Source: Candidatus Cloacimonadota bacterium
GTDB lineage: Bacteria; Muiribacteriota; UBA6191
DNA: 64,000 nt
Direction: 5' to 3'
Assembly: GCA_019454875.1 (NCBI GenBank)
Contig: JACFNL010000010.1
Coordinates: forward strand, 1-64,000
Each line of letters begins with the position of its first letter. The stretch's first letter is position 1. The translations under genes and the position numbers were made by a program. Of the stretch, positions 19,403 to 56,430 are shown one piece after another. The notes beneath the pieces were generated by a model. That model had not been told where the DNA came from and searched no databases. It saw nothing but the letters and a program-made list of their open reading frames with translations.

Positions 19403-19669
19403 ATGAAAAAATGGCCGGTAAATTTGATGATTGGCAATACCACCGTTGAATTAAACGATGGAGATTTTATTCTCGAAGGACTGGAGTCTTTGGGAGTGGA
19501 AATGAGTGCTGACTGTAGAAATGGGGTCTGTGGGGCCTGTATGACCCGTTGTACTGGCCCTGTTGAATGGGCAACCAGCGAACACTGCCTTTCTGAGGAT
19601 ATGATAGAGTGTGGTTATATCCTCAGCTGCATTTGCAGAGTCAAGGGACCTTTGCAGATTGACGAATAG
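19403..19669 (+). CDS. plant-type [2Fe-2S] ferredoxin
   Basis: The 88-residue protein has the ferredoxin cluster motif CRNGVCGACMTRC (cysteines around 38, 43 and 46) and the distal cysteine in SCICRVKG near 75, giving four ligands for a [2Fe-2S] cluster. It is an electron carrier for an unidentified partner. No reductase or oxygenase lies nearby. The start is divergent from the histidine kinase with about 35 bases between and no evident Shine-Dalgarno. Its 3' end overlaps the convergent giant membrane protein gene by 29 bases. Confidence 0.85.
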   Translation: MKKWPVNLMIGNTTVELNDGDFILEGLESLGVEMSADCRNGVCGACMTRCTGPVEWATSEHCLSEDMIECGYILSCICRVKGPLQIDE

Positions 19670-22600: not shown

Positions 22601-25600
22601 TGATATACACTCCCATCAACTCTGTACCAAGCTGCAAAGGCAAAGACAGCTCCAGGTTTTCTGGCACACGAATCCTGGCCTGATATGCCTGAGCCACACG
22701 ACCACGGCCGATCATCAGGGTTTTTACCGAAAGACTTTCTGCCAAACCGCTACCAAGGGCTAAAGATGGCAATGGATTGATACTGGCTTTAAAGCCTGGA
22801 AAGATTCCAGAAAATCTCCAGTGGCCCAAAACCGGCTCACTTAAGTTTTTCAAATCAGAATCCAGACTCTGTTCTACCATTTCGGGATTATTTTCTGGCT
22901 TCACTTTCAGATTCTCACGAACTGTCAGAACAAGTTCCCCACCAAGCGAAATCAGCTCGGAATTCTGCTTAGGAATAGAAACTTCTGTTCCGGTGGCCAG
23001 AATTTCCCCTTCCAGATGAATTCTGCCACTTCCCAGAATCCCCCCAGGGAACAACAGGGTATTGCCAGAGAGCTGAAAAGGCTGAGGCGGATGAATTGTC
23101 AGCTGGTGCAGGCGAAACCCTTCAACAACTGGTAAAACAATTTTTTGCAAGGACTGGTGTAAAACACTGACATGCAAAGACATTTTTAAATTATGGGCCG
23201 AAGACCCTACACTCAATTGGTAATTAACAAACTCAGTAGCCTGAGATGGTAACTTCTTAAAGTCTTTGACTTCCTCAACAATCGCTGGTTTTTCCTCATT
23301 TTGATAGGCCAGTTTGAGCTGTTTAATACGAAACAGGTAATAGGGTGCCAGGGAATCCTCTCCCCTCTCAGATAAAAGTCTGAGACTGGATTGGCCCTTA
23401 AGAGAGCGGATTTCAATAAAGGCTTCAGGAAGCTCAATTCTGGCCTCGGAAGCTCCAAAATAATACCATCCGGTAAACTGTATCCTTTGTGCGCTCTGTT
23501 TAAGTTCTATACAGACACCATCACCGCTATCCTGCTTTTTCCATGGAAGTGCGGGCAGCTTATGGTAGACAAGGCCCGGGGAAAGTACATCCACACAGTG
23601 CCCGGATTCTTTGCTGGCTGAAAGAAAAACCTCATGATCAATTCTTAAAACCCCGGTACTCTCCTCGGAGATATCAAGACCTATTACTGGTAGAGGATTC
23701 AAGCGATCCCCACCGTCCTTTTCTAAAGCCTTTACAAATTCTGGCAAACGGGATTTTGGAATTAACTCATATCCGGTAAGCTCGGAAACCTTATTCCAGT
23801 CCACAAGTTTTGTCTTCCAGTCCTGGGTATATGAGGGAAAACTGCTCAACAGGAGAATAAGGCCAGGAAACAGCCGTTTGAGCCATACCATGGGCTGACT
23901 GCATACCCGAAACAGAATCATTAACAAAGCCCCGGCATACACTGCTCCAGAATAGGCAAAAGGCATCTGAATCAAAAAGGGCAATAAAAACAGGATAGGA
24001 ATCAAGGTTTTAAGGCCGGGCAAAAGGCAAAAAATTGCCACACCTGCCACTATCAGGGCTACCCAGTTAGGCGAAATGCGTTCTGATACCTCAATATCCA
24101 TGGAAACATTGCGAAAAGCCGGTGTCAGAAACCAGGCAATCCTCTGCAAGGACTCATGTGGGATTGGCACAGGCATATCTGCCGCCGAGGACAATAATCT
24201 ACCCTGAAACGAATCCGGTAAAACCCCCTGAAACTCAGGGTTCATTCCACCAGGATGCCAATGAGGATTAACCATTTTTAATGTTCTGGAAGAATCTGTA
24301 CCTGCCCGCAAAGTGGCCTGAGCAATAGGAAGACTCAGATCGGCTGGTTGAATTGAAAGGATTCGTTTTCCAGAAGTCGGGATTTTTGTAGTCAGTTCCA
24401 GGGAAAACGGTATAACTTCACCCCCAGGACTAAGAACCATTTTTAAAGGTAACAGCCAGTTTTCTCCCTGAATCCCGATTGTTGCTCTCTGACCCTGAAT
24501 TCTTGCTGTCAAAAGCTCTTCCCCCGTCATAGGTTTAAGAACCAGAAACTGCTCAGCATGATTTCTTACCACCAGGGAGCGTCTCAGATACATAGTCCCA
24601 TCTGGTGCCAGATAGACATACATTTCCAACAGATCCACAAAAGCAGAAAAGGTGTTGATTCCTTCTCTGGCAACCACCGTAAGATAAAATGCCGAGGTTT
24701 TGTCCAGGCCTGCCTCGGTCTGGATTTCCTCCATTTCAAGTATGGTTTTGGCAGGATTTCTTTGTCTAAGGCTCTTTTTCATGGCCTCACTCATATCCAG
24801 ACGAAACTCAAGTCCCACCTCCGGCTCGAAGTTCCAGGTGCTTTCCAATGAGTTTGCCTGAGGAACAGAAAAAGGAGTCAATGTAGTTGTCCTTGTGCCC
24901 AATGCCTTTTCTGAGGCCATATCCAAAGTCACCTGTCCGGCTGTACCTGGGCGAAAATTAACGGTCAGAACCCCCTTTTCAAGAGAACTTGACCAGTCCA
25001 GAATCTCGGCCCCGCTGGCAGATACCGATTTAATCAATAAACCTTCCGGCAGACGAACCTGCAGGGCTTCGTTAAGGTTTCCCTCAATCGACATACGAAG
25101 CCGGGAACGGATTTCAGCCAGACCCTCCTTGATTTGCACCTTATGGTTGCCAAGAATCCTCATCCCGCGAAATTCCATTCTAGTGGTTGTCGGGGCCTCT
25201 GTCACAATCTGGTTGCCTAACTTCTTTAAGGTCACGGTAAAGTCACGGGACGAGGGTAAAGCATACTGGCATTGAGAAACCTGGGGCACTGTTGTTGCGA
25301 TTGAATAGTGATCACAGGGGAGTTCTAAAAAACTGATGGGAATGGAGGGGGCCTTCAGTCTAACAGAATACCCCGTAGCCAAAAGTCCATCCACATTTTC
25401 CATAAGCACAAGAGTCAATCGTAAAGAATCAGGCAGCTTTGAACCATAGTCCAGAATTCGCCTGCCATTCAAATCAAAAATTGTTTCAGGTTTCGGCTCA
25501 ATGTCTGTATGCAGGTATCCGCTGTAAAACGAGTCAAGCTCCATGGTGCTGAATCGCTCGTGAGGTCTGGAATAAACCATATCCAGAAAAAGACGGTTTT

Positions 25601-28016
25601 CCTTCACATACAGATAAAGATTGCTGGTCTTAAAGGCCGGATACACGCGGTCTTTGGCCGTGGTTCTTGAAAAAACCATTTCATAATCTGCTTCAGAAAC
25701 AAAGTGAAGACGGCTTCCATCTGCCTGTGGCACAATCTGCACATCTATAGCATAAGTTGGAATGATCAGAACCAGAGCCCCTGCAATCTGTCTGCGAATT
25801 TTAAAGAAAATTCCACCCATACCCCATAGACCAATCATAAGAGGCTGAGCTACTAGCCAAACAAAACCACTTAACAGGTTCATCAGATAAAATGCCACCC
25901 AGAACAGGGCGCAAAACCCAAGGCCAGGCCCAAAAAGTTTTGTATTTTTCTGAATAAGAATAACCAGTCCCACTGCCCAAAACATACTGAACAATAGCTG
26001 TAAACCAGGTCCTAGAGGAAATATGGATGCTCCAAAGTCAACCTCAACCCAGTGTCCCTCCTGCCGTCCCATCAGGGAATACAGAAAAAACCCTTCTCCC
26101 GAGGGCATATGCACCCCGTTTCCATGACTCCAGGTATAAGTAGACTGTGGCAAGGGAAGAATATCGTAGTATTGTAGTACCTGCGAGCTTAACAATAAGA
26201 CCCAGGAACCCAGAAACAAACCCAGCACCAGTCTTTTTATCAGGCCATAAAAATTCAGCTCTCCCAACCAGAAAGCCTGAACCCATCCAGCCTTAAGAAA
26301 CAGAAAAAACAAAAGGACAGCCAAAATAATCACCCAGCCGAAACGGGCATACTGCAAACCATTTCGCACCAGGGCCTGTGCCCTCTCCCATCCCGGATTT
26401 TCAAAACTGGATCGCACTGAAACCATGCTGGAGTCTTCTTCAACCTGTACGGTGAAACTGATATTCTGGGCATGGGCGGGCAGGGGTAAATCAATCTTTA
26501 CTTTGTCCTGATCTACAGGAGGAGCTATAAGCGACAATTCCAATTTCTGATTCTGAAGACCACCAATCATCTGCCTGTTCTGCAAAAGATTGTAGCTTTG
26601 ATTTTCTCCAGATCTGAGAATCTGTGAGGATTTTAAGTCAACCCCAATCTTGCCCTCCCCTTCTGAAAACACGGGCACCTCACTGCCGTTTAAGCGAGCG
26701 GAACGAAATTCATAGTTTTTGGGAAATTCAAAAATATAACTACCGGGTTTCTCAACCTGTAGATTATAAGTCCAGCTATGGATTGCTCCCCGGTCTGCCT
26801 GAAAACGGGCCACTCCAAAAAACCCAGCTATCACCAGAGAAACTGGTTCTAGTCTGGTAAAAAGCTCAGAATCAATATGTACGGAACCAGAGTCTCCCAG
26901 AATCCGACAGGCATATAGAACCGGCTCTCCATTTTCAGGTTTTAATTCGGAAGGTAGTTCTGTCACATCCACGCGGGACACCCTCTCCGTATGATCAAAC
27001 CGGACTTCCCGAACCCTTAAAACATCAGAGGCTTCCAGGGCCAAAAAGGATCTTTGAGATGCGACTTCATGCATGCGGATCAGCCCCGGTAAGTGTATGG
27101 GGATATCTGGATTTTCTCTGACAAAACGGCCCACCATCTTAAATGAGGCCAGGTCTCTTTGGTCACGATGAAATCGGATCATGCCATTATGCTTAACAAA
27201 ACTAAGACCCAGACCATTTAACCCAGTAACTTCGGAAACCTCAAAACCCTGAGGAACCAAAAGACTGATTTCCCTGACAGGATGGCGGGAGATCGTGAGA
27301 TGTGTCACCATCTCATAAACTACCTCGCTCCTGCTTAAACGCAAACGGTGGGACGACTCTGCAAAAATCTGGGGTTTCAAAACATCATCCCCAACTACCG
27401 AAACAGGCTTCACTGGATCCATCTGGGCCAATCCCTGACGACGGGCCCGGATACGAAGCCCCTGGATCCCTTCAGTCGAGACCATAACCGGTATGGCAAG
27501 TTCCGTTCGCAATGACTCCAGATAGACTCGAGGCTGTAGCCAGTCCCCGTCTAACTGTAAATTCAGTTCTCCTGCCCATGAATAGATAAAGGGCACTAGA
27601 AGATCCAAATCCCTCTGATTGGCAGGAATTGGAAAAACAGCTACAAAATCCACCTGTTCTTCCGTGTCACTTTGTAATTTCCAGGTATCTGCATCATAAA
27701 TCAGTTCAGGGCCCGTATATTTTGTCAATGCAAAACCGGCTGGCAATAACTGCATCGGCTCAGGACTTGTAACCTGGGCCTTAAAGCTTAGAAACAGTGC
27801 CGCCTGCCCCAGCCCAAGAGTCAATTTCATATCCTTGATACGGGCAGGCACAGGGACCTTTGGCTCAAAATCCTTTATGGCATTCAGTTCTTCATTTGAA
27901 ATCAGGACATGGGATGAACCAGGAATCTGACCTGGCCCCAGAAGTTTTTCCCTGACTGGTAGTGCCTTTAAAGACACCACAAATAACAACAGAAACAGAA
28001 GCCTTAGAGCCAACAT
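19641..28016 (-). CDS. giant 2791-residue multi-ectodomain membrane protein, unknown function
   Basis: A signal peptide (MLALRLLFLLLFVVSLKALP) is followed by four large beta-rich regions alternating with clusters of membrane helices. Rough layout: ectodomain 21-555, helices 557-765, ectodomain 765-1310, helices 1313-1400, ectodomain 1400-1900, helices 1902-1985, a linker with Met/Gln/Glu-rich and Pro-rich parts (APPPPASP near 2048), helices 2117-2200, ectodomain 2200-2725, and a last pair of helices. The ectodomains share phrases of the form LPxxxxxxxVxVxG (about 508, 987, 1781 and 2598), suggesting repeated beta-sandwich modules. GGAGG lies five bases before the ATG. I do not recognise the family. 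An envelope-spanning structural or transport role is speculation. It is monocistronic. Confidence 0.8.
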   Translation of the reverse strand: MLALRLLFLLLFVVSLKALPVREKLLGPGQIPGSSHVLISNEELNAIKDFEPKVPVPARIKDMKLTLGLGQAALFLSFKAQVTSPEPMQLLPAGFALTKYTGPELIYDADTWKLQSDTEEQVDFVAVFPIPANQRDLDLLVPFIYSWAGELNLQLDGDWLQPRVYLESLRTELAIPVMVSTEGIQGLRIRARRQGLAQMDPVKPVSVVGDDVLKPQIFAESSHRLRLSRSEVVYEMVTHLTISRHPVREISLLVPQGFEVSEVTGLNGLGLSFVKHNGMIRFHRDQRDLASFKMVGRFVRENPDIPIHLPGLIRMHEVASQRSFLALEASDVLRVREVRFDHTERVSRVDVTELPSELKPENGEPVLYACRILGDSGSVHIDSELFTRLEPVSLVIAGFFGVARFQADRGAIHSWTYNLQVEKPGSYIFEFPKNYEFRSARLNGSEVPVFSEGEGKIGVDLKSSQILRSGENQSYNLLQNRQMIGGLQNQKLELSLIAPPVDQDKVKIDLPLPAHAQNISFTVQVEEDSSMVSVRSSFENPGWERAQALVRNGLQYARFGWVIILAVLLFFLFLKAGWVQAFWLGELNFYGLIKRLVLGLFLGSWVLLLSSQVLQYYDILPLPQSTYTWSHGNGVHMPSGEGFFLYSLMGRQEGHWVEVDFGASIFPLGPGLQLLFSMFWAVGLVILIQKNTKLFGPGLGFCALFWVAFYLMNLLSGFVWLVAQPLMIGLWGMGGIFFKIRRQIAGALVLIIPTYAIDVQIVPQADGSRLHFVSEADYEMVFSRTTAKDRVYPAFKTSNLYLYVKENRLFLDMVYSRPHERFSTMELDSFYSGYLHTDIEPKPETIFDLNGRRILDYGSKLPDSLRLTLVLMENVDGLLATGYSVRLKAPSIPISFLELPCDHYSIATTVPQVSQCQYALPSSRDFTVTLKKLGNQIVTEAPTTTRMEFRGMRILGNHKVQIKEGLAEIRSRLRMSIEGNLNEALQVRLPEGLLIKSVSASGAEILDWSSSLEKGVLTVNFRPGTAGQVTLDMASEKALGTRTTTLTPFSVPQANSLESTWNFEPEVGLEFRLDMSEAMKKSLRQRNPAKTILEMEEIQTEAGLDKTSAFYLTVVAREGINTFSAFVDLLEMYVYLAPDGTMYLRRSLVVRNHAEQFLVLKPMTGEELLTARIQGQRATIGIQGENWLLPLKMVLSPGGEVIPFSLELTTKIPTSGKRILSIQPADLSLPIAQATLRAGTDSSRTLKMVNPHWHPGGMNPEFQGVLPDSFQGRLLSSAADMPVPIPHESLQRIAWFLTPAFRNVSMDIEVSERISPNWVALIVAGVAIFCLLPGLKTLIPILFLLPFLIQMPFAYSGAVYAGALLMILFRVCSQPMVWLKRLFPGLILLLSSFPSYTQDWKTKLVDWNKVSELTGYELIPKSRLPEFVKALEKDGGDRLNPLPVIGLDISEESTGVLRIDHEVFLSASKESGHCVDVLSPGLVYHKLPALPWKKQDSGDGVCIELKQSAQRIQFTGWYYFGASEARIELPEAFIEIRSLKGQSSLRLLSERGEDSLAPYYLFRIKQLKLAYQNEEKPAIVEEVKDFKKLPSQATEFVNYQLSVGSSAHNLKMSLHVSVLHQSLQKIVLPVVEGFRLHQLTIHPPQPFQLSGNTLLFPGGILGSGRIHLEGEILATGTEVSIPKQNSELISLGGELVLTVRENLKVKPENNPEMVEQSLDSDLKNLSEPVLGHWRFSGIFPGFKASINPLPSLALGSGLAESLSVKTLMIGRGRVAQAYQARIRVPENLELSLPLQLGTELMGVYINSEPAKAFMNESGFLAIQFPVSLSDQVIQLEVKLLEKVQESRRLWLTLPESLKALKTSWEVWYPEEIHVKSLQSNLNHEKESDPKNWIQANDSEVLKLNLFGAMLITFSVCMAGFILWLLYRITAFLFSALIEVLQGIKSPVFQLWLKRIVGVGMVVVLGVLGLGLLSFGLSFSKKTVEELIPNVRRARERSIEKRNQMQNLMQSNEADYLGSMPMMEDSQRFEGKAEMEFSAQRSMSMRKSAAPPPPASPYNLKPSRLDVGQAIKKGNIKPVQVVLPALPNKKILYSEQPLSEAGFVRIELSDTSFWFENPQFQTLLWLVVIGIAFLSLLYQKLALLLLSGLCLGFLPFPQVILSGLLLPVLVLGLLKRKALWIFLILCMPCDVSSSTLYQIWDAQNRKIVFEDQVLVQSLREKKPDIEESKNFCHELKIEFLRLIGQDLAEVSYTCKLNGSLAVLMSGLPRNAGLLTISPSIYPYKRDGETVSFGPFPDNNKTEDLVIRFTIPVKPENYGDVLRVRLPFMASVKSTVDAGAIGRFPQLSGMQSGDFSGVFPTGKIREDLLLLRRVTRWRPGVASGREVITGSRKPQFTGTWQFVAKEWGIESSMNLSIQSTTSIQLNLPDDSLVVALSLSANGKELMQGRDYGVEIHKKNALVLEWKAISTALNLKISYKLPRNSQVQTLPFVPVEGGTVKLLVNAESYLQTRLLIKPHEANVARFRQSLVSHREGWQIINPEPSLSGVPMFDIEIREREKVGVSAARILDYRIHYHYAGDSRIHGKAEFQISNPSGQFLSLRIPESAQLWQVMVENQSVRLAKTEDGLVLIPLKVSLATKNLSVVFRWEEALTKAESSEWQLSIPRPQLSLNKLTLTFTSAKELEFQPVPLSFKKQGRLMWTSERQGGLSDQPIRFKEVLGLEMDSSLPEWPYLEILILALCLLGTLKLSVNLQNIVLGIGGIGLVFALHPLAYLVMAWWFYTQTIRQSAKVP

Positions 28017-42871: not shown

Positions 42872-43885
42872 ATGAAAGCATGGCTATCTGCATTTTTTGC
42901 CCCCAAAGCAGCCTACAAACTGCTTCGGCACAATTCATCATTACAAAAACTCATGATAGTGCCCTGCATTCTACATCTTTTTGTATTTTTTCTCTCCCTG
43001 TACGCCACTTTGAACTGGTTTGGATATCTGTTCCCTGTTGGCTGGCCAGAACTCCCGCAAAATATTGCTGAACTCGGCTCCTTCTTTTGGCAGATTTTGG
43101 TATCTATCTCCATGCTTCTGGGAAGGGGAATCATCTTTTTGGCCTGCTGGCTACTGGGATTTTCTGTCTTCTGCTCTATTTATTACACCTGGATGCTTGA
43201 AAAAGTGGAAGGTGTTTTAGGGGTAGAAACCTGTAATAAAAACACATTAAGCCCTATCCGTCAGATCCTGGATATGGCCGGAATTGGCTTGATTCTTTTG
43301 GTTGGCAATGCCGCTGCCGGTATATTTTCTCTTCTTCCCGTACTTGGAATTGCTGGTTTTTTTGCATTTGGGACAGTTTTGCAGGCCTTACTTTTAGGTT
43401 GTGAGTTTTTTGACTGTGCCCTGAGTCTTCGTGGCAAATCGTTTACCCAAAAGCTCAATTTTTTTTATACACAGTCCGGTTCCGTTTTAGGAATTGGAGC
43501 GGTTTCCCTGATTTTTTTACCCATTCCCATCCTGAATGCCGCCCTGTTTACACTCTCCATTGTTGGGGCAACCATCCGGCTAAGAACCATGGAAGTCAGA
43601 CAAAAGACCCTGGAATGTCTGGGTTCCGAATGGGTTGCTTTAATCCGTGATGATACGGCCATGATGTTTCCCGATTTTCTTTCCGGTCGTTTTAAATCAG
43701 ACACACAATCTGACTGGAACGGTCCCTGTTACCTTGCCCTGAATCAGGAAACTAACAAAATTGTGGCATTTGATTCCCTGAGTGTGCGCTGGGAATCAGA
43801 GAATGGGCTGCAAATATGGTCAGAAATTCAAGAAGTTTCGCTAAGCACATTGCGCTCTGCTAAAATTGGGAAATGCGAGCCATGA
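42872..43885 (+). CDS. EI24/CysZ-like integral membrane protein
   Basis: The 337-residue protein starts with the family-like KAWLSAFFAPKAAYKLLRHN segment, a cytosolic amphipathic stretch followed by several hydrophobic helices (about 25-250). The order and loops resemble EI24-domain proteins (CysZ and relatives). CysZ acts in sulfate uptake, but many members have unknown roles. A C-terminal cytosolic extension of about 100 residues (ECLGSEWVALIRDDTAMMF) is longer than usual. It overlaps the downstream HEAT protein gene by 13 bases. Confidence 0.7.
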   Translation: MKAWLSAFFAPKAAYKLLRHNSSLQKLMIVPCILHLFVFFLSLYATLNWFGYLFPVGWPELPQNIAELGSFFWQILVSISMLLGRGIIFLACWLLGFSVFCSIYYTWMLEKVEGVLGVETCNKNTLSPIRQILDMAGIGLILLVGNAAAGIFSLLPVLGIAGFFAFGTVLQALLLGCEFFDCALSLRGKSFTQKLNFFYTQSGSVLGIGAVSLIFLPIPILNAALFTLSIVGATIRLRTMEVRQKTLECLGSEWVALIRDDTAMMFPDFLSGRFKSDTQSDWNGPCYLALNQETNKIVAFDSLSVRWESENGLQIWSEIQEVSLSTLRSAKIGKCEP

Positions 43886-45399
43886 AACGAAGCCTTCAAG
43901 ACATCATGTTTGATATTAAAAGCCATGATGCCGACATCCGCCGATTTGCAGTAAGAGATCTATGTGTTTCTGACATCCCCGATAAAGTCAGGATTCTTGA
44001 GGACTTTCTGGTTGCTGAGACGGATATTCAGATCAAATATGAAATCCGCAAATCAATCAATGAATTACAATCCTTAAACCGCCCCGTCAAAAAAAATCTG
44101 GATTCAGAGAACCTAAGAAACCTGGACAGGGCCTTTCAGGCCACTGACCCTGAAATTGTCAACCGTGCCTATATTTATGCCGTCAAACACAGGCTGGAAG
44201 AATTTCTTCCTGAAATGCTTCTAATCGAAAGTTATACCCAGGATACTTTCCATAAAGTGTGTAACATTCGTCTGCTTCTGGTTTCAGGGGACAAACATTT
44301 TGATCACATCCTCGGATACCTTGAAGACCCTGAGCCCCGTGTCATCTCCACGGCTATTGAGGCTCTGGAAATCATTGGAAACACACAGGCTCTAGCCTCC
44401 ATTACCCAGTTTTCCGGGCACGAACATAACCGGGTTCGCGCCACAGCCATCAAGGCATTGCACAATCTTGGCGATGCCAGATCCTTTGCGTTTTTTACCA
44501 GAATGGTGCAATCTCCTCACTCTGCCTTTCGTGATTCCGCCGCCTTTGCACTAGCCCAGATTAATCTGGAGCAAGGGCCACAACTTTTGGCCATTCTTTT
44601 AATGGATGAGGTTGAGAGTGTAAGAGTCAAAGCTTTACGGGGTCTGGAAAAACTGGCTGATGAAGGCAATGGTCGGGCCAGAGAAATTCTTGAAAATGTG
44701 GAGAAACAAAACCCTTTTGGACTCTGGCCAGACAAAATTTTTCACAAATTCCAGGGTATTAAAGTAGAAGTCCCCATCAAAAAAGAAGGGCCTGCTGCTC
44801 TCGATTCAGATATTCAGGAATTCCGTATGAGTGCGGTGCAGTCCTTGGTTGAACAGGAAGATGGAACCGACCCATCCATAATTATTAATCGCCTGAAGCT
44901 TGAGAAGGACTATAAGGTCATTGCCGCTCTTGTGGTCAGTTTAGGAAGAATTAAGGGTGATCCCAAAATCATTGTGCCCGTTTTGGAAAAGTATCTGTCT
45001 CATCACAATGATAGAGTCCGAGCCAATGCTGTAGAGGCGATTACCTGTATCGTACCTCCTGCCAACCGTCAGATTTTGTTTCGCTGCCTGGATGACACTA
45101 GCAATCGCGTCGTAGGCAATGCCATTTTAGCCCTGTATAAAGTGTTTCGCAAAAAAACGGATGCGGCCCTGAACCGTCTCGCCGACTCCCCGCATAAACT
45201 GAACAATCTGACAGCCGCTTTCTGCATCGGAGAACTTGCGGATCACAACCTTCACATTCTGGCCACCAAACTTCTTAGAAACCGACATCCTGAAGTCCGT
45301 GAAAAAACCGAAACAATTCTTAAGATCCTGGAAAAAGATATCCCCGCATTTCGTACAACTCTGGAAAACTACAAAAAGGAAAAAGAGGCTTTTGCCTGA
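43873..45399 (+). CDS. HEAT-repeat protein
   Basis: The 508-residue soluble protein is built of HEAT or PBS-lyase-type repeats. Helical pairs such as PRVISTAIEALEIIGNTQAL, NRVRATAIKALHNLGDA and DRVRANAVEAIT recur at about 30-35 residues through most of the length, forming a solenoid for protein binding. No catalytic motif is seen. ATG 43873 lies inside the previous gene. ATG 43882 is an alternative. A partner for this scaffold is not evident. A second HEAT protein is encoded at 49.1 kb. Confidence 0.85.
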   Translation: MRAMKRSLQDIMFDIKSHDADIRRFAVRDLCVSDIPDKVRILEDFLVAETDIQIKYEIRKSINELQSLNRPVKKNLDSENLRNLDRAFQATDPEIVNRAYIYAVKHRLEEFLPEMLLIESYTQDTFHKVCNIRLLLVSGDKHFDHILGYLEDPEPRVISTAIEALEIIGNTQALASITQFSGHEHNRVRATAIKALHNLGDARSFAFFTRMVQSPHSAFRDSAAFALAQINLEQGPQLLAILLMDEVESVRVKALRGLEKLADEGNGRAREILENVEKQNPFGLWPDKIFHKFQGIKVEVPIKKEGPAALDSDIQEFRMSAVQSLVEQEDGTDPSIIINRLKLEKDYKVIAALVVSLGRIKGDPKIIVPVLEKYLSHHNDRVRANAVEAITCIVPPANRQILFRCLDDTSNRVVGNAILALYKVFRKKTDAALNRLADSPHKLNNLTAAFCIGELADHNLHILATKLLRNRHPEVREKTETILKILEKDIPAFRTTLENYKKEKEAFA

Positions 45400-47674: not shown

Positions 47675-49084
47675 TCAACGATTCTGAAACAAGCGCTGAA
47701 AATTCTCTACAGACTTCAGAGGTTTTCGCATAATAACCTCTGGCTTGACGGCATACCCTTCGGTTTCCCTCATGACATTGGTTCCACAATGAATCTGGCC
47801 GTTGGAATAGTGATAAGCCAGGTTTTCCAGAAAATGAGGTACAATTTTTGTGGATGCAGTGGTTTGACGGATATGATCGTTAAACAAAGGGAACTGAGCA
47901 TCAGGAATCACAGCGTGATGACCTAATACCAGCATATTCACTGTGCCTGGCAATAGTGCCACACAGCCATACAGTCCACCACCACTTTTGCGACCCTGAA
48001 AGATTGTGGGAAAAGAAACCACTCTGAACTCGGTTCTGCGACCTTTGGTGGCCGCTGTAATACTCTGCTTCAGAGTCTCAATATTTCTGTCAATCAACTC
48101 AGAAATACTGCGATTCAAATCCACAAGCTGATTCATTCTTAATGGATCAGAATTTCTGGCAACCGGTTCGGTAAGAATATTTCCCTCGCTCAGATCGTAG
48201 TCATCAAGCCCCATCCTGGAAATACCTTCTTCCTTCAAAGAGTTATGCATATTGATAATCTGGGAACGGTAGGAAGAATGGATGGCGTTCAACTGTTCTG
48301 GACTAGCATTTTTGATTAAATCTATCGCCAGACCTGGATCGGCCTTGACAATAGCATAACCACCGGGAGCTGAGGCGTCGGGTACAAAGGAGACATATTC
48401 ATCAACATGCCCTACTGTAAGCCAGCGGGTTTCCAGAAGGGCTGTTTTATCTGCATACCCTCTCTGGGCAAAAAACTGCCGTAAATCCTGAGTGGATGTA
48501 TCACCAATCACTAAAACATTGTCGGGGGATACTTCAATATTGCCGCCGTAATCCCCTTTGATTCCCTGATTATTGGGGTTTTTCAGATAGTGGGCACCCC
48601 ACATATCGGCAAACAGCTTTGGCAGGCCACGAAGACCACGACCACGGTTGGAGTCAAATATAGTCAGCTCCGGTTCAGATTTACCAGAAACTTCCGCCAC
48701 CAGAATTTCGCCCCAGTCCTGCATCCACTGATCGGATGTAAAAAACTGTTCGTTGATTTCAACCAATGAACCATAAAGACCAGCATCTTCCATCTGCTTT
48801 TTAAAGCTTCGGTATGAAGAAGACGAGTCTACAATCACATGTAATTTTATGGGATTGGCAAAATCCTTGTTGATACTCTGAATGGTGCGTACCAGATTGT
48901 CTACAAACCCTGAGGTCGAGTAGTTTCTGACCACAATCACCTTTTTTGGCAGATTGTTATTGGACATCATACGCAGTTTGGTTACCTGCTCAGGCTGAAT
49001 TTCACGACTCAGAGTTTCATCTGCGTTCAGTGGGGCTGCCACAGCCATAACAGCCATTATTGAATTACGAATCAGGCGTTTCAT
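47675..49084 (-). CDS. secreted protein-arginine deiminase of the eukaryotic PAD type
   Basis: GGGAG before ATG 49084 gives 469 residues with a signal peptide (MKRLIRNSIMAVMAVAAPLNA). PAD-family catalytic motifs are present in order: WMQDWGEI (Asp123), GNIEVSP, WLTVGHVDEYVSF (His226 and Asp228) and GQIHCGTNV (Cys433). These correspond to Asp350, His471, Asp473 and Cys645 of human PAD4. The enzyme should convert protein arginine to citrulline outside the cytoplasm, unlike PPAD or agmatine deiminases, which are a different subfamily. The N-terminal immunoglobulin-like PAD domains are not apparent. It follows the HEAT gene by 52 bases on the same strand and is terminated by a strong hairpin. Confidence 0.88.
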   Translation of the reverse strand: MKRLIRNSIMAVMAVAAPLNADETLSREIQPEQVTKLRMMSNNNLPKKVIVVRNYSTSGFVDNLVRTIQSINKDFANPIKLHVIVDSSSSYRSFKKQMEDAGLYGSLVEINEQFFTSDQWMQDWGEILVAEVSGKSEPELTIFDSNRGRGLRGLPKLFADMWGAHYLKNPNNQGIKGDYGGNIEVSPDNVLVIGDTSTQDLRQFFAQRGYADKTALLETRWLTVGHVDEYVSFVPDASAPGGYAIVKADPGLAIDLIKNASPEQLNAIHSSYRSQIINMHNSLKEEGISRMGLDDYDLSEGNILTEPVARNSDPLRMNQLVDLNRSISELIDRNIETLKQSITAATKGRRTEFRVVSFPTIFQGRKSGGGLYGCVALLPGTVNMLVLGHHAVIPDAQFPLFNDHIRQTTASTKIVPHFLENLAYHYSNGQIHCGTNVMRETEGYAVKPEVIMRKPLKSVENFQRLFQNR

Positions 49085-49136
49085 TGGAATTCTCCCTTGC
49101 CAGCGGATCCTAAGCATAAGGATTCCAGCGAATATG

Positions 49137-50433: not shown

Positions 50434-50463
50434 CAGACAGACCCTACCGCTTGCTGATATAAT
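50434..50463 (+). promoter_or_regulatory. promoter giving a leaderless mRNA for the triple radical-SAM gene
   Basis: A perfect TATAAT (50458-50463) lies exactly six bases before the ATG at 50470, placing the expected transcription start at the start codon. The -35 is weak (CAGACA at 50434-50439, 18-base spacer). No Shine-Dalgarno is present; the bases between are all T. Confidence 0.55.
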
Positions 50464-50469
50464 TTTTTT

Positions 50470-53400
50470 ATGAAAGCCATCGTATTACTGCTGGGCAATC
50501 CCGCACCCTCCCCTCGCCTCAGAATTCAGAATTTCTCTAAAGTCCATAATCTGACGGTACAGAAGATCTCCCTTCCTCTCTCCATTGATTTGGAGATTGC
50601 AGACTTTTATGTTCTCTTTGGATTAGGAATTAGCCTGACGGATCAGCTGGAGGCCGGACGATCCATCAAGGCACTCATCGGAGAAACCCCCCTGTTTTTT
50701 GCCAATGAAACAAGCCTTGACCCAAGGGTCCAAGCCAAAATACCCACCAGTGTCTGTGATGGATTTATTGCTCTTAATGAACTGGAATCCACCATTCATG
50801 ACATGCTTGTCTGTGCCAGGTTGACCGATTTAGCAGATGTAGCTGGAGTGACAATCAACCAGAAGAGACAGGTTATCAGTACCAGTCCCCGCAAACCAAA
50901 CACCCATCGTCTACCGGCTGAACACTTCCGGGCAAATCTGACGGATCAGATGGATAGCTCCGGATTTTACCCTGTACTGAGTTCACTTGGATGCTCAGAA
51001 CGGTGTCATCACTGCAACATTGTATCCAGAGAGGGGTTCCGTCGCCAGATGAGTACAGAGGATTTGGCAACTCTGGCAATATCCTTGAACCGTGAGCAGG
51101 GAGTTCGCAAAATCTCCTTTCTTGATCAGGACTTTAACCAGGATCATGAATCGCTGCGACTGTTTTCAGAAAAACTGATCGAGTCCAATTGTGGTATCGA
51201 ATGGAAGGCAGGCTTTTTCTTCCGTGAATTTTCCGAGACCCTGGTGACACTTCTTAAGGAAAGCGGACTTAAGGAGGCTCACTTTGTAATTTTTAGCGGA
51301 TCCGATCGGGTTTTAAAAAGAAATAACATAAAACAGACCGTCAAACTGATTCGCAACACATTAAGGCAGTTCTTTAGTTCAGGCATCGTAGTCCGTCTAA
51401 AAGTTATGGTTGGACTTCCTTATGAAAACTGGGTTGATTATCACCGAACCCTGGCATTTCTGGAATCTGTCAGACCACTGGTTCATGAAGTGCAGGAAAT
51501 TCGCAGTATCTCCATGGAAGCCAACAGCTTCTACTCCCGTCGGCATGAAGAATTCGGGATACAGATAAACCCCGGAGACTACACTGGCTGGGTAAGGCAG
51601 GAGCGGGATCATTTAAATGATCATTCATCCCGGATCATGAAACAGGCATTTATTGAGCACAAACTCAAGGGCATGGGACTGTTTCATAAAAAAGGTATTT
51701 CTGAACAGTACGATCTGTTTGAAATGCAAAAAAGGTATGACGAATTTAAAGCCTCCCGTAAGGACATCAGTCTTGTCACCTGCCCCCCCTGGGGATATCT
51801 GAATCCCCCTGTAGGTATTGCTAAACTGGCTGGATACCTAAACTCCAAGGGTAGATCCTGTGCCGTATTTGACTTCAATGTGGATTTGTACCTCAAGTAT
51901 GAAGATTTTCAAAGACTTTGGCATGTGGAGAACAAATCCTACTGGTCCAATGATTTAACCTTTGATGTGATTCGTTCGATTTACGATCAGGATATTGATG
52001 AGGCTATTGATCAGATTCTTGATATCAATACCGATTTAATCGGCTTTTCTGCAGTGGATCCCAAAGAAAGAATGACCATAGAATTTATGCAAAGACTGAG
52101 GGAAAACCACAGTGAACTTACTATCATTTTAGGTGGTCAGGTTTGTGGAACCAAGGAATACAGGCATATCTTTTTTGATAAATTAGGCCCTGGCGGGGTG
52201 GATTGTTATGTGGTCGGTGAGGGAGAAGATACCCTCATGGATATTCTGACTGCTTTAGATAACAATCAGAGCTTAAAAGATATCCCCGGCACCTGCCATG
52301 TCGATGCCAATGGAGAATGGTCGTTTGCCCCATCCCGTCCCAAGGTGGATTTGTGGAATTTGCCAATCACGACCTTTGAAGAATTTGACCTGACTAAATA
52401 CTCCTGTCAGGAGCTTTTACTGGAATGGTCCCGTGGCTGTATTGGAACCTGTTCTTTCTGCAAAGCCAAGGTTCTTGATGGAAAGTTTCGCTCCTATAGC
52501 CCAGAACATGTCGTGGAGTCCCTTCGTTATTATGTGGGAAATTATGGAATCCGCAAATACACCATCTGCGATCTTGCCGTAAATGGAAACTGGAAACTTC
52601 TGGAAAAAACCTGTGATGCCATTATTGAATCGGGGATCAAGGTGGAGCTTAGGGCCCAGGGAATTCCACGCCGGCAGATGAAACTTCCCCTGCTGCAAAA
52701 AATGAAGGCCGCTGGTTTTGTAGAAATGCAATGGGGAGTTGAGTCCGGCTCAGACAAGGTTTTAAAGGCAATGGACAAGGACTGGATGTTTACCATCGCC
52801 GAGGCCCAGGAAGTGATTCGCAACAGCCATATTGCTCAAATCAAAACCTGCATGTTCTGTATGGTCGGTTATCCCACAGAAGAAGAAGAAGATCATCGCA
52901 TGACCTATGACTTTATTGACAGAAATGCGGAATACATGGATATGGTCAAATCTGTCAATAGCCTGCACATCATTACAGATACACCGTTACATCACAAAGC
53001 CCAGGAGTTTGGACTAGTACTTCCCGAACGGGATTATCACTACCTCTGGTCCATGCCCGGCAATACTCATGAAATCCGCCAAAGAAGGGTTAAGGAACTT
53101 CTGGATTTAATTAAAATCAAAAATCTGGAATGTGTGGAAACCAACTTCCTTGAGGGCCGTCAGTATGAAATGGTCAAAGACTACAGGGAAGAATATGTCC
53201 CAATGGATGAAAAAATTGCCAGGCTCAGAAAGGATATCAACCAGCTGATTGACTACCGTATGAATCAGTCCGAACAATGGGAAGGTGATGATAATCCCCG
53301 CGAGGAATTTCTAGCCAATCACCGGGATCTTCTAGGAGTCATTCACGGAAAACAGGCTTTTGTGGGACCAAAAATTGTGGAGATCGATCTGTCCAACAAC

Positions 53401-54792
53401 TGCAATTTCAACTGTGTTGGCTGCTGGTGTCATTGTGATCACTTAGAAGAGTTAAAAACCCCTGCCCAGAAACGCAAAAACTTTCTACCTTTGGAGACCA
53501 TTCAGGGCCTTATCAAGGATCTGGCCGATTTAGGCACTAAAACCATACAGCTTGCTGGCCCGGGCGAACCCTTCACCCATCCCCAGATCATGGATATCAT
53601 TCGATATATCAAGGGAAACGGTCTGGAACTTCACATCATCACCAATTTTTCCTACATTGATTTTCCAGTGGCCCAGGAGCTGATGGATCTCAGGGTAGAC
53701 TCCCTGACATGCTCACTTTGGGCTGGTAGTGAAGAGGCATTTTTACGCACGCATCCGAATCAGACCGCAAAAGCCTTCCATGATATTAAAAACATCCTGA
53801 CTTTTTTTGGAAACAACAAGAAGTACAACCGCTATCCCAGGATCAAAATTTATAATGTGATAAACCATCTAAATGCCAATGACATTGAAAACATGGTGCA
53901 ATTCGGCCGCGAAGTACGGGCTGATACCATGGAATTTACGGTTGTGGATACAGTTCCTGGAAAGACCGAGTTTCTAAGTCTGACCCTGGATGATGTTAAA
54001 ATCATTGAGGAACAGTTCAGCCGGGTTTCTGCCTCTGCCACTTACCCTGATCCCCCAGGACACAAACACCTGGCAGGACTGAGTAAAGAACAGATGGAGG
54101 AACACTATGAGCTTCATGCCAAGTTTTTTACAGACATGGGAGACTATCAGGGATTTGATTACGAACCGGTTAATAAGGTCATGACATGCAAGGCCGGTGT
54201 TTCCAATGAAAGAATGGTGCATGATCCTGAATGGCTCTGTGCCAATGTTTTTTATTTTCCATCTCAGGGCTGTATGAGCTGCTCCCAGTTTAATGAATGT
54301 CAGATTGATAAACAGGATTTTAGTATCAAAACCCGGTTTTTTGCCGTTTTAGGATTTGGGTCTTTTATTCGCCGGGCCCGTGCTTCTGCTGTAGAACGCA
54401 GCCGCAAGGAAGGACGAGGCCGTGAGGTTGCCAAACTGAATCTTTTGCCAGCCACTCCCTTTGTGGATACCTTGCCCTGTACCATTGGATGGAGCTACAG
54501 TAGAATTACAACCTCAGGTGATGTGATCCCCTGCTGCAAGGGGTATAACAAACCACTAGGCAATCTTTATGAGAACCATTTTAAACACATATGGAATGAT
54601 CATAAAATGCGCGAGTTTCGCTTCCGTGCTAAAAATATCAGCAAGGGAGATGCCTACTTTGAGCCGATAGGATGTTATAAGGCCTGTGATAATGTCGGAA
54701 ACAACATGGAAATTCACAAACGCCTAAAGAAACTTAAGCCAAGAGAACTGTCATGGCTTCAGGAAGAAGCCAAAAGGGTGGACCAAACATGA
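50470..54792 (+). CDS. triple radical-SAM protein with B12-binding-like and SPASM-like domains
   Basis: The 1440-residue soluble protein contains three CxxxCxxC motifs in the right setting for radical-SAM [4Fe-4S] clusters: Cys175/179/182 (GCSERCHHC), Cys657/661/664 (RGCIGTCSFC) and Cys978/982/985 (NNCNFNCVGC). Between the first and second is a Rossmann-like B12-binding-type domain (about 430-600, TCPPWGYLNPPVG and GLIGFSAVDP-like strands), without an obvious DxHxxG. The second rSAM has WGVESGSDKVLKAMDKD, typical of B12-radical-SAM enzymes. The third has LAGPGEPFTHP and is followed by a cysteine-rich SPASM-like end (GCMSCSQFNEC, PCTIGWSY, VIPCCKGYNKPLGNLYE). Residues 1-160 are unassigned. Chemistry is unknown. 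The gene is transcribed apparently without a leader and coupled to a 59-residue ORF. Confidence 0.9.
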   Translation: MKAIVLLLGNPAPSPRLRIQNFSKVHNLTVQKISLPLSIDLEIADFYVLFGLGISLTDQLEAGRSIKALIGETPLFFANETSLDPRVQAKIPTSVCDGFIALNELESTIHDMLVCARLTDLADVAGVTINQKRQVISTSPRKPNTHRLPAEHFRANLTDQMDSSGFYPVLSSLGCSERCHHCNIVSREGFRRQMSTEDLATLAISLNREQGVRKISFLDQDFNQDHESLRLFSEKLIESNCGIEWKAGFFFREFSETLVTLLKESGLKEAHFVIFSGSDRVLKRNNIKQTVKLIRNTLRQFFSSGIVVRLKVMVGLPYENWVDYHRTLAFLESVRPLVHEVQEIRSISMEANSFYSRRHEEFGIQINPGDYTGWVRQERDHLNDHSSRIMKQAFIEHKLKGMGLFHKKGISEQYDLFEMQKRYDEFKASRKDISLVTCPPWGYLNPPVGIAKLAGYLNSKGRSCAVFDFNVDLYLKYEDFQRLWHVENKSYWSNDLTFDVIRSIYDQDIDEAIDQILDINTDLIGFSAVDPKERMTIEFMQRLRENHSELTIILGGQVCGTKEYRHIFFDKLGPGGVDCYVVGEGEDTLMDILTALDNNQSLKDIPGTCHVDANGEWSFAPSRPKVDLWNLPITTFEEFDLTKYSCQELLLEWSRGCIGTCSFCKAKVLDGKFRSYSPEHVVESLRYYVGNYGIRKYTICDLAVNGNWKLLEKTCDAIIESGIKVELRAQGIPRRQMKLPLLQKMKAAGFVEMQWGVESGSDKVLKAMDKDWMFTIAEAQEVIRNSHIAQIKTCMFCMVGYPTEEEEDHRMTYDFIDRNAEYMDMVKSVNSLHIITDTPLHHKAQEFGLVLPERDYHYLWSMPGNTHEIRQRRVKELLDLIKIKNLECVETNFLEGRQYEMVKDYREEYVPMDEKIARLRKDINQLIDYRMNQSEQWEGDDNPREEFLANHRDLLGVIHGKQAFVGPKIVEIDLSNNCNFNCVGCWCHCDHLEELKTPAQKRKNFLPLETIQGLIKDLADLGTKTIQLAGPGEPFTHPQIMDIIRYIKGNGLELHIITNFSYIDFPVAQELMDLRVDSLTCSLWAGSEEAFLRTHPNQTAKAFHDIKNILTFFGNNKKYNRYPRIKIYNVINHLNANDIENMVQFGREVRADTMEFTVVDTVPGKTEFLSLTLDDVKIIEEQFSRVSASATYPDPPGHKHLAGLSKEQMEEHYELHAKFFTDMGDYQGFDYEPVNKVMTCKAGVSNERMVHDPEWLCANVFYFPSQGCMSCSQFNECQIDKQDFSIKTRFFAVLGFGSFIRRARASAVERSRKEGRGREVAKLNLLPATPFVDTLPCTIGWSYSRITTSGDVIPCCKGYNKPLGNLYENHFKHIWNDHKMREFRFRAKNISKGDAYFEPIGCYKACDNVGNNMEIHKRLKKLKPRELSWLQEEAKRVDQT

Positions 54793-54968
54793 TGGAAGAT
54801 AATTTGCGCCATGAGCTGCTTGCATACTCACTGGAAGAATTGGAGCAAATGCTACACCGGGGGATGATTCCTGAACATCTTCAGGAAGATCGGAAGGTGA
54901 TTCTGGCCACCCTGATTGAAGTCATCAAGGAAAAAAAGAGGGACCAGCCCTTTTACCCTGTTTTTTGA
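54789..54968 (+). CDS. 59-residue protein coupled to the triple radical-SAM gene
   Basis: The ATG at 54789 overlaps the radical-SAM stop (ATGA), which is typical of translational coupling. The product is acidic and helical (MMEDNLRHELLAYSLEELEQ then EVIKEKKRDQPFYPVF), with no Cys. It may be a partner subunit, a regulator or a substrate peptide of the radical-SAM enzyme. None of these can be chosen from sequence. The open frame also extends upstream to 54753 inside the enzyme gene. Its 3' end overlaps the convergent glycosyltransferase gene by 16 bases. Confidence 0.6.
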   Translation: MMEDNLRHELLAYSLEELEQMLHRGMIPEHLQEDRKVILATLIEVIKEKKRDQPFYPVF

Positions 54969-56233
54969 GCTCCCAGTCTTTTAATATCACGACTCCAGCG
55001 CAAGGCCAGTTCTGACTTTTCTTCCTGCTGTATTCGCAGATCAGAGAGAAGTTTTTTCTGTACTCTTAAAAGGTGTTCATTTTCATCCATCAAAGCTTGG
55101 TTTTTTTGTACCAGCTGGCGTTTTTCAGCCTCCAGGGCCGCCATCCCATCATAAGAAACCCCCAACGCCTTAGGATTTTTGATAAACCCCATCAAGTTCT
55201 CGTAAATGGTTTCGGGTTTCAGATACTCATGCAAACCGGCCCTTAAATTATCTCTTGCCTGAAGCAGACGATTTTCTAAATTTTTTACATTCTCCAGGTC
55301 TTTGGGTTCGGAAAGTAAAATTCCAAGCCCATGTTTTTCAATAAACTCAGATAACTCCAGACCCTGTGGATAAAACACCGGAATACCACAGTATAAATAT
55401 TCCACCGTCCTTGTTGTAATGGCTAGTTCTCTTTCGCGATTACCTGCGTACCAGTCCCAGGCAGCCATCGCCCTGGAATAGAGCTTTGGAATCCTTTGGT
55501 GAGGGACTCCAGAATCAGAAGTCTGGGATTTTAGATGATCGGGATTGAGTGCTGACTGTTGAGCCACACAGGTAAATTCCTTGAACAAAAGTCCTTTTGA
55601 CTGAAACCATTCCTTAACCCAGTCTCTGTCCCCCATATCGATCCAGGGCCAGTTTCCACCACCGCAGATCACATCCGGTTCGGGTTCCTTTTGTCTATAA
55701 CCCTTGTACCATTCCTCAGGCAAAAGCAGGGGAACATGCAAAATCCTCTCCTGAGCCATATCCATACCAGCTGCCATGGCAAAGGCCAGAAAATAGTATT
55801 TTTGACGCAGGCCCGGAACCAGAAATCCATTACATCGTGAAAGAGCCATCATTTTTGCTCTAAGATCGTATTTTCCCCTCTGTCCCCGATAATAATTCTC
55901 CCAAAGTAAAGAACCATGCAAATCACAAAATATCGGGGTTTTAATTCCTTCGAGCTGATCCAGAAGTCCCCACTGCTCCACGATAATTACATCTGGATTG
56001 ATCTCTGAAATCCTGGCTGCCAGATTCATGCGGATCAGTCCATCCTTACAAATTTCTTCCAGTTCAAAAAGTTCTTCAAATGGGGAAGGTTCCACCTTTG
56101 ATTTCTGGCGTAAAAATGATACCCTGCACCCGGATTTTTTGAAGGCATCTGCCAGGCCCATAACCCGCAATGCCCCACCAGATAAGGCGTAGTCGCGATT
56201 TAAATGCTCGATTGTGACCAGACAGACATGCAT
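54953..56233 (-). CDS. glycosyltransferase (GT-B fold) with coiled-coil tail
   Basis: GGGAGG five bases before ATG 56233 gives a 426-residue protein. The GT-B fold is suggested by the N-terminal VCLVTIEHLNRDYALSGGAL (glycine-rich loop after the first strand), DVIIVEQWG and CDLHGSLLWENYYRG. A C-terminal donor-site-like part (ELAITTRTVEYLYCGIPVFY with later LSEFIEKHGLGILL) follows. The last 60 residues form a coiled coil. The sugar and acceptor are unknown. The radical-SAM gene and its small partner converge on its end. Confidence 0.75.
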   Translation of the reverse strand: MHVCLVTIEHLNRDYALSGGALRVMGLADAFKKSGCRVSFLRQKSKVEPSPFEELFELEEICKDGLIRMNLAARISEINPDVIIVEQWGLLDQLEGIKTPIFCDLHGSLLWENYYRGQRGKYDLRAKMMALSRCNGFLVPGLRQKYYFLAFAMAAGMDMAQERILHVPLLLPEEWYKGYRQKEPEPDVICGGGNWPWIDMGDRDWVKEWFQSKGLLFKEFTCVAQQSALNPDHLKSQTSDSGVPHQRIPKLYSRAMAAWDWYAGNRERELAITTRTVEYLYCGIPVFYPQGLELSEFIEKHGLGILLSEPKDLENVKNLENRLLQARDNLRAGLHEYLKPETIYENLMGFIKNPKALGVSYDGMAALEAEKRQLVQKNQALMDENEHLLRVQKKLLSDLRIQQEEKSELALRWSRDIKRLGAQKTG

Positions 56234-56430
56234 TTTTTCCTCCCTGCTTGACAAACATCATACAAGAAGTTGTCAAGAAAAAACCTTTTGGTACGATATA
56301 AAATTAGGGTCAGACACAAGAGTTGAAATCAGGCCAAAAATTGTCTTGATCTTTAAGCAGTCGGTTTAGTATGCTCGCATCGGAATTTAGACAGAGACTT
56401 TAAACAATTGAATGTAGAAAGGTTAAGTTT

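Follow-up and report, generated by a model that had tools for sequence, protein, structure and literature searches.

A candidate tandem radical-SAM enzyme with three modules, and longer chains of the same kind in another phylum

The 1440-residue protein and its modules

The window analysed here is a stretch of 64,000 nucleotides from a Candidatus Cloacimonadota bacterium (assembly GCA_019454875.1, contig JACFNL010000010.1, positions 1 to 64,000), and our subject is one gene in it, at 50470..54792 on the forward strand. It encodes, in a single uninterrupted frame, a protein of 1440 residues along which three radical S-adenosylmethionine (rSAM) domains are strung, each belonging to a larger module. 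The parts, in window coordinates, are these:

50470..54792, forward strand: tandem rSAM gene, 1440 residues, three modules
50470..50859, forward strand: degenerate B12-type Rossmann domain of module 1, residues 1-130
50983..51462, forward strand: rSAM domain 1, residues 172-331, CX3CX2C at 175-182
51757..52269, forward strand: cobalamin-binding Rossmann domain of module 2, residues ~430-600 (Pfam match 498-592)
52426..52917, forward strand: rSAM domain 2, residues 653-816, CX3CX2C at 657-664
53389..53904, forward strand: rSAM domain 3, residues ~974-1145, CX3CX2C at 978-985
54175..54309, forward strand: Cys-rich insert, residues ~1236-1280 (C1240, C1268-x2-C1271-x5-C1277)
54478..54687, forward strand: SPASM-type end (C1337, C1355, C1356, C1402, C1406)

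The Pfam profile for radical-SAM domains (PF04055) finds three stretches in the protein (E 1.4e-44 overall), and when the thirds are searched singly each matches: E 3.3e-14, 2.4e-15 and 3.9e-13, or 53.8, 57.5 and 50.4 bits against a cut-off of 29.5. A match in each fragment rules out chance CX3CX2C motifs. The cysteines of these motifs (175/179/182, 657/661/664 and 978/982/985) are invariant in the full-length orthologs, those of domain 1 also throughout the aligned homologs, and the motif is unbroken in every slot of all intact homologs. An initial annotation, made from the letters alone, had placed the three motifs at just these positions, with a B12-binding domain ahead of the second and a SPASM-like end behind the third. 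The profile searches that it proposed recovered all three domain types (PF02310 at 498-592, PF13186 at 1337-1387), so that its list was right as far as it went; it had overlooked the second, degenerate B12-type Rossmann domain at residues 1-130 and the nine auxiliary cysteines of module 3. In structure prediction, its other proposal for counting the folds, strands and helices alternate in each of the three domains, and Foldseek leads from the models to rSAM structures. These AlphaFold2 models, of residues 1-945 and 945-1440, were built on alignments of 12-13 sequences and have a mean predicted local distance difference score of 78 each and predicted template-modelling scores of 0.73 and 0.80. 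Against viral structures, Foldseek matched ordinary rSAM/SPASM-type proteins only. Plasmid and phage records, consulted for a mobile-element origin, hold no full-length match.

Full-length orthologs of 1440-1450 residues are present in three other metagenome-assembled genomes (MAGs; the organisms carrying the chain are known here from MAGs): G001 (L019; UBP17_UBA6191) at 90% identity, and G002 (L020/L030) and G003 (L021), both Candidatus Cloacimonadota, at 61% and 59%. An assembly or frameshift artefact is ruled out by the recurrence of the same chain in independent MAGs at 59-90% identity and by a base composition that is even across the modules. Between the window genome (G000) and G001 the ratio of non-synonymous to synonymous change (dN/dS) is ~0.03 over the whole gene, synonymous change being saturated and protein change limited; dN is 0.12-0.16 in module 1 as against 0.03-0.04 in modules 2 and 3. 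The sister-family genome G004 encodes a protein of 2074 residues with four rSAM and two SPASM domains; that of G006 has the same beginning and lies at a contig end. A cobalamin riboswitch (RF00174) is present in G002 and G003 and was not found in G000 or G001.

Module 2 has the layout of class B cobalamin-dependent rSAM methylases, an N-terminal B12 Rossmann domain followed by the rSAM core: PF02310 scores 36.4 bits against a cut-off of 32.1, and the signatures WHVENKSYWS and DPKERMT are kept across lineages. The recognisable cobalamin-binding domain that goes with that class is lacking in module 1, which gives no PF02310 match in Pfam and is devoid of the CPPWG, GG and GEGE features of module 2. 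Its residues 1-130 are modelled as a succession of strands (E) and helices (H): E3-8 H13-25 E29-33 E46-50 H56-70 E75-78 H85-90 E98-100 H102-113. Because modules 1 and 2 align over their full length (416 columns, E 1.7e-31 by hhalign) and because the same two modules of the four-rSAM G004 homolog, compared sequence to sequence, do so over the whole B12+rSAM length (E 1.8e-25), domains 1 and 2 are, judged by alignment, diverged tandem copies of one B12-rSAM module, the first copy being without its B12 signature. Foldseek searches with the 1-945 model, which do not tell the two modules apart, return TsrM (E 5e-18), OxsB (E 1.6e-17), MgmA and AprD4. The curated NCBIfam models PhpK (152.3 against 600), rSAM_ocin_1 (122.6 against 281.85) and ApyD (124.8 against 750) stay under their cut-offs even when scored over the whole protein, and score lower still by module. 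Membership in TIGR03975 was considered and rejected: two of the three giant proteins tested pass its cut-off solely through the summing of several modules.

Module 3 is of the rSAM/SPASM type, with PF13186 at 43 bits against a cut-off of 21.5. Upstream of that match lies the Cys-rich insert, which is missing from stand-alone related rSAM/SPASM proteins. The four cysteines of the insert and the five of the SPASM-type end are invariant in 11 of 11 aligned C-terminal modules from several lineages, which makes 12 invariant cysteines with the three of the rSAM motif. The auxiliary spacing, C-x27-C-x2-C-x5-C and then C-x17-CC-x45-C-x3-C, differs from the textbook seven-Cys SPASM spacing; nine auxiliary cysteines would likely suffice for two auxiliary [4Fe-4S] clusters. 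The best profile matches of module 3 in the PDB are BtrN and BlsE, sugar or cyclitol enzymes, and the 945-1440 model brings up DesII, SuiB, BlsE and SkfB in Foldseek.

Longer chains and the sorting of modules by slot

The initial annotation knew of no described enzyme with this exact order. The order is apparently undescribed, but the protein does not stand alone: its family, which occurs in at least one other phylum, has chains of three to five rSAM modules, and this is the short form. The search that shows this covered 382 genomes taken as relatives and then one other phylum, fewer than 1000 genomes in all; the counts of 3, 4 and 5 rSAM stretches are Pfam's and the module order comes from our own profiles. 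T-class chains consist of two or three B12-rSAM-type modules followed by rSAM/SPASM (1544 residues with three rSAM domains in G385; 1945-2104 residues with four in G353, G219, G382, G074 and G384). F-class chains begin with rSAM/SPASM and continue with four B12-rSAM modules (G074, G219, G353, G382, G384 and G385; 2288-2361 residues where the start is clear). All seven genomes sampled from the other phylum carry members, G383 as fragments, and partial members occur outside it, in G227 and G421. The G004 and G006 proteins join an F-type beginning to T-type modules, with the T-type end visible in G004 only (the G006 contig ends first); in a tree of rSAM/SPASM modules the N-terminal module of both groups with the F-class ones (support 100).

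The initial annotation had also called for a phylogeny of each domain. In a quick tree of 64 B12-rSAM-type modules, slot labels change 21 times, the minimum possible being 19 and the mean after shuffling 50.7. The slot before last (module 2 of the window protein, module 3 of the T-class chains with four rSAM domains, T4) forms a single group with support 100 and has a near-invariant WHVENK[SN][YF]WS ... DPKER ... EWSRGC. Since the modules group by position in the chain, and not by protein or genome, each slot is, on this phylogeny, an old and specialised unit. That clustering by slot across lineages rules out that the domains were duplicated within the protein only recently. The branch leading to the window family's module 1 is long (length 3.35); constraining this module to join slot -2 (the second before the last module) changes the likelihood by +4.65 (approximately unbiased test, p 0.665), and a single origin of the two is thus allowed though not proven by the tree. 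In none of the lineages tested does the B12 domain of slot -2 reach the PF02310 cut-off (13.6-28.4 bits or no match), while the adjoining slots exceed it.

Three further observations concern rSAM proteins of these genomes. In the same phylum as the window, G009 (L070:1650-4940) and G013 (L071:1414-4668) encode a two-rSAM protein with the order SPASM-B12-rSAM-rSAM-SPASM (Pfam-checked in G009), probably a separate fusion, whose gene adjoins further rSAM genes. A B12-rSAM protein of 1085-1111 residues in a single frame is found at L065, L067 and L068 (G004, G005); in L067, Pfam places HEAT repeats after its rSAM domain. The genomes G074, G219, G353 and G382-G385, all of one phylum, have 64-111 first-look candidate places each for the query used, which suggests an unusually large rSAM set.

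Neighbouring and partner genes

Two further genes lie at the downstream end of the locus:

54789..54968, forward strand: 59-codon gene whose ATG overlaps the rSAM stop codon (ATGA), conserved in G001-G003
54953..56254, reverse strand: glycosyltransferase-like protein with a C-terminal coiled coil, a convergent neighbour (PF13524 E 1.4e-4; 22.3 bits, below the cut-off of 25)

The 59-codon gene is 98% identical in G001, with 13 synonymous codon differences and one non-synonymous; G002 and G003 have shorter homologs in the corresponding position. Four of four family members thus have a small gene directly downstream, and in two of them it overlaps the stop codon. No convincing counterpart was found downstream of the chain gene in G004 or the other lineages. 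Pfam gives no significant match for the product, whose middle is conserved in the manner of a folded helical protein; it may be a partner, an activator or a peptide substrate. At the other end of the rSAM gene a TATAAT within window 50458-50469 ends 6 nt before the ATG, and the stretch TGATATAATTTTTTTATG is identical in G001, divergence setting in further upstream; the two together suggest a transcript that is leaderless or nearly so.

The convergent glycosyltransferase gene has homologs in G000-G004, and a related frame lies beside an rSAM fragment in G227. In G004 its homolog leads a group in which a glycosyltransferase-rSAM/SPASM fusion gene and an rSAM/SPASM gene stand immediately ahead of the four-rSAM gene. 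The window genome has this fusion on another contig (G000:C95:40654-43146, 831 residues), clustered with genes for rSAM/SPASM (387 residues, at ~43146-44309), rSAM (464 residues), a second rSAM/SPASM protein (348 residues) and a coiled-coil protein; G002 and G003 keep the same gene order. The coiled-coil gene (L022:8277-9312, on G000:C95), which lies in the middle of the cluster and is kept in G002 and G003, has near-identical 21-residue repeats (GLEKAHLDLQKHFAEREQSRE) and contains an internal run of N.

Fusion and chain go together. In the window phylum the fusion is present in 6 of 6 genomes with a chain as against 1 of 34 others (G005, 72% complete; hypergeometric p 1.8e-6, uncorrected for shared ancestry). 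Outside that phylum each of the nine genomes with chain members has both halves of the fusion, in most as a single frame, and the fusion was not found in 41 genomes without a chain, two of which gave an rSAM-only match. In G074, G219 and G382 it lies on the same contig, ~8-9 kb before the F-class gene. Other neighbours of the chain genes include a Wzz/Wzc chain-length protein, an SLBB export protein and GT2 (flanking the three-rSAM gene of G385), a Wzy_C O-antigen ligase (after the G004 chain gene), GT2 genes (G353), a carbamoyltransferase directly ahead of the F-class gene (confirmed by Pfam in G353; other genomes have frames like it) and an epimerase of the short-chain dehydrogenase/reductase type near the F-class gene (G074).

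Elsewhere in the window, on the reverse strand, 47675-49117 encodes a secreted-looking protein of 480 residues with a full match to protein-arginine deiminase (PAD, PF03068; E 1.7e-25), a domain that is, to our knowledge, unusual in bacteria. Two long reverse-strand frames, at 19641-28016 (2791 residues) and 3822-7157 (1111 residues), have no Pfam match at E 1e-5.

A proposed scheme of radical stations, its rivals and known systems

What might such a chain do? Three SAM-cleaving [4Fe-4S] motifs would generate 5'-deoxyadenosyl radicals at three separate stations. Module 2 would probably methylate an unactivated carbon, with methylcobalamin as the methyl donor, by analogy with the class B methylase layout. 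Because the B12 signature is lost at its slot in every lineage tested, module 1 would probably carry out a cobalamin-free radical step (dehydration, epimerisation or cleavage). Module 3, to go by its BtrN-, BlsE- and PqqE-like relatives, would probably carry out an oxidative step, its auxiliary clusters taking up the electron. The fixed order of the modules suggests that the stations act in succession on a single substrate or a single class of substrates. Most likely this is a sugar linked to a nucleotide or lipid, or else a growing glycan, because of the gene neighbours, the BtrN and BlsE profile matches of module 3 and the structural match to AprD4. The glycosyltransferase-rSAM/SPASM fusion enzyme would work together with the chain, and the homologs with four and five rSAM domains would follow the same scheme at greater length.

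We put at about 0.5 the probability of this reading as a whole, in which the 1440-residue protein is a tandem, multi-module rSAM enzyme whose several stations modify a sugar or glycan by radical steps in succession, with at least one B12-dependent C-methylation probably among them. Several points weigh against this reading. Residues ~132-192, which comprise the linker and the rSAM cluster loop of module 1, are modelled at low confidence. The window gene is flanked by unrelated genes save for the convergent glycosyltransferase, the partner cluster being on its separate contig. The NCBIfam models nearest to module 2 include enzymes acting on ribosomally synthesised and post-translationally modified peptides (RiPPs), ApyD and rSAM_ocin_1, and a conserved small gene lies just downstream. 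Tentatively, and with the odds somewhat against us, we would go further and regard the whole family as assembly-line-like rSAM megaenzymes: three to five modules, each specialised for its slot (B12-dependent, B12-free or SPASM), acting in fixed order on one substrate to yield, in uncultured bacteria, a multiply modified sugar or glycan, a layout like that of modular synthases with radical chemistry at every station.

The last two of these points make a RiPP pathway the main rival, since the curated models nearest to module 2 are RiPP methyltransferases and the small gene is at hand. The modules would then methylate and cross-link a single precursor at more than one site, the 59-residue product being that precursor or an accessory binding protein. 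Module 2 alone scores best with RiPP C-methyltransferases (ApyD 114.5 bits, rSAM_ocin_1 114.0), but these scores are far under the cut-offs already given; among the structural matches of module 3 are the SPASM enzymes SuiB and SkfB, yet no RiPP recognition domain, peptidase or exporter is seen beside the rSAM gene, and the neighbours that recur are glycosyltransferases. The small gene, so constant in the window family, has no convincing counterpart downstream in G004 or the other phylum, and its product is conserved like a folded protein. On balance we consider a RiPP maturase unlikely. Modification of a peptide at several sites, which the initial annotation had entertained, is possible but has less support than a sugar or glycan as substrate, because glycosyltransferase and polysaccharide neighbours are conserved.

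If the modules were independent enzymes fused for the sake of co-expression, as metabolic enzymes often are, with unrelated or loosely related substrates and no sequential action, why should their order be kept? Related single B12-rSAM and rSAM/SPASM proteins do occur in the same genomes, and the number of modules differs among lineages, as such a fusion would have it; but slot order persists across lineages, modules follow position and not genome, and chain and glycosyltransferase-rSAM fusion are always together in the genomes sampled. This, too, we think improbable. Lastly, module 1, and possibly others, may be a catalytically dead scaffold or regulatory domain that leaves one or two active stations: it has lost its B12 signature and is the fastest evolving of the three, by dN and by branch length. 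Against this stand a CX3CX2C motif that no slot of any intact homolog has lost and a limited protein change in the face of saturated synonymous change, and we hold a dead module to be quite improbable. If the preferred reading of successive stations on a sugar or glycan is true, the conserved slot-specific order of three to five units would show that a single polypeptide can serve to organise radical steps; and tandem rSAM chain, glycosyltransferase-rSAM fusion and rSAM/SPASM partner would make up a defined enzyme set for finding the product.

No described enzyme of this exact domain order was found in the literature searched, as the initial annotation had surmised, nor any described protein with at least three rSAM domains; subscription journals lie mostly outside that literature, which makes this weak evidence, and the tandem rSAM chain family is apparently undescribed. 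The surmise that enzymes carry a single rSAM domain holds as the norm, but FbiC already has two: in this F0 synthase, a CofG-CofH fusion, two rSAM domains serve one pathway step, for which two separate 5'-deoxyadenosyl radicals are used (PMC11917521). FbiC is like the 1440-residue protein in having several rSAM domains per polypeptide and unlike the chain family in having two and not three to five. The CofG and CofH models are not among the 25 best of the 59 NCBIfam matches of the 1440-residue protein, and the FbiC pair is not recovered among them. FbiC is also not known to have a cobalamin or SPASM domain.

The class B cobalamin-dependent rSAM methylases have the B12+rSAM layout (PMC9692996, PMC13331322) and, as reviewed, carry one rSAM domain (PMC13331322). 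They and their relatives (TsrM, OxsB, TokK, CysS and MgmA, and the sequence models for PhpK and ApyD) have the B12-rSAM layout in common with module 2; unlike them, the present protein has this unit tandemly duplicated, one copy without a B12 signature, and scores far under the family cut-offs. AprD4, the radical SAM diol dehydratase acting on paromamine, has a B12-rSAM-like fold and a sugar substrate and presumably does not use cobalamin; it may serve as a model for a module 1 that works without cobalamin, though itself single-module. BtrN, BlsE, DesII, SuiB, PqqE and anSME, rSAM/SPASM or Twitch enzymes of sugars or peptides, resemble module 3 in fold and auxiliary cluster region, but module 3 differs by its added four-Cys insert and by following two modules of the B12-rSAM type in a single chain.

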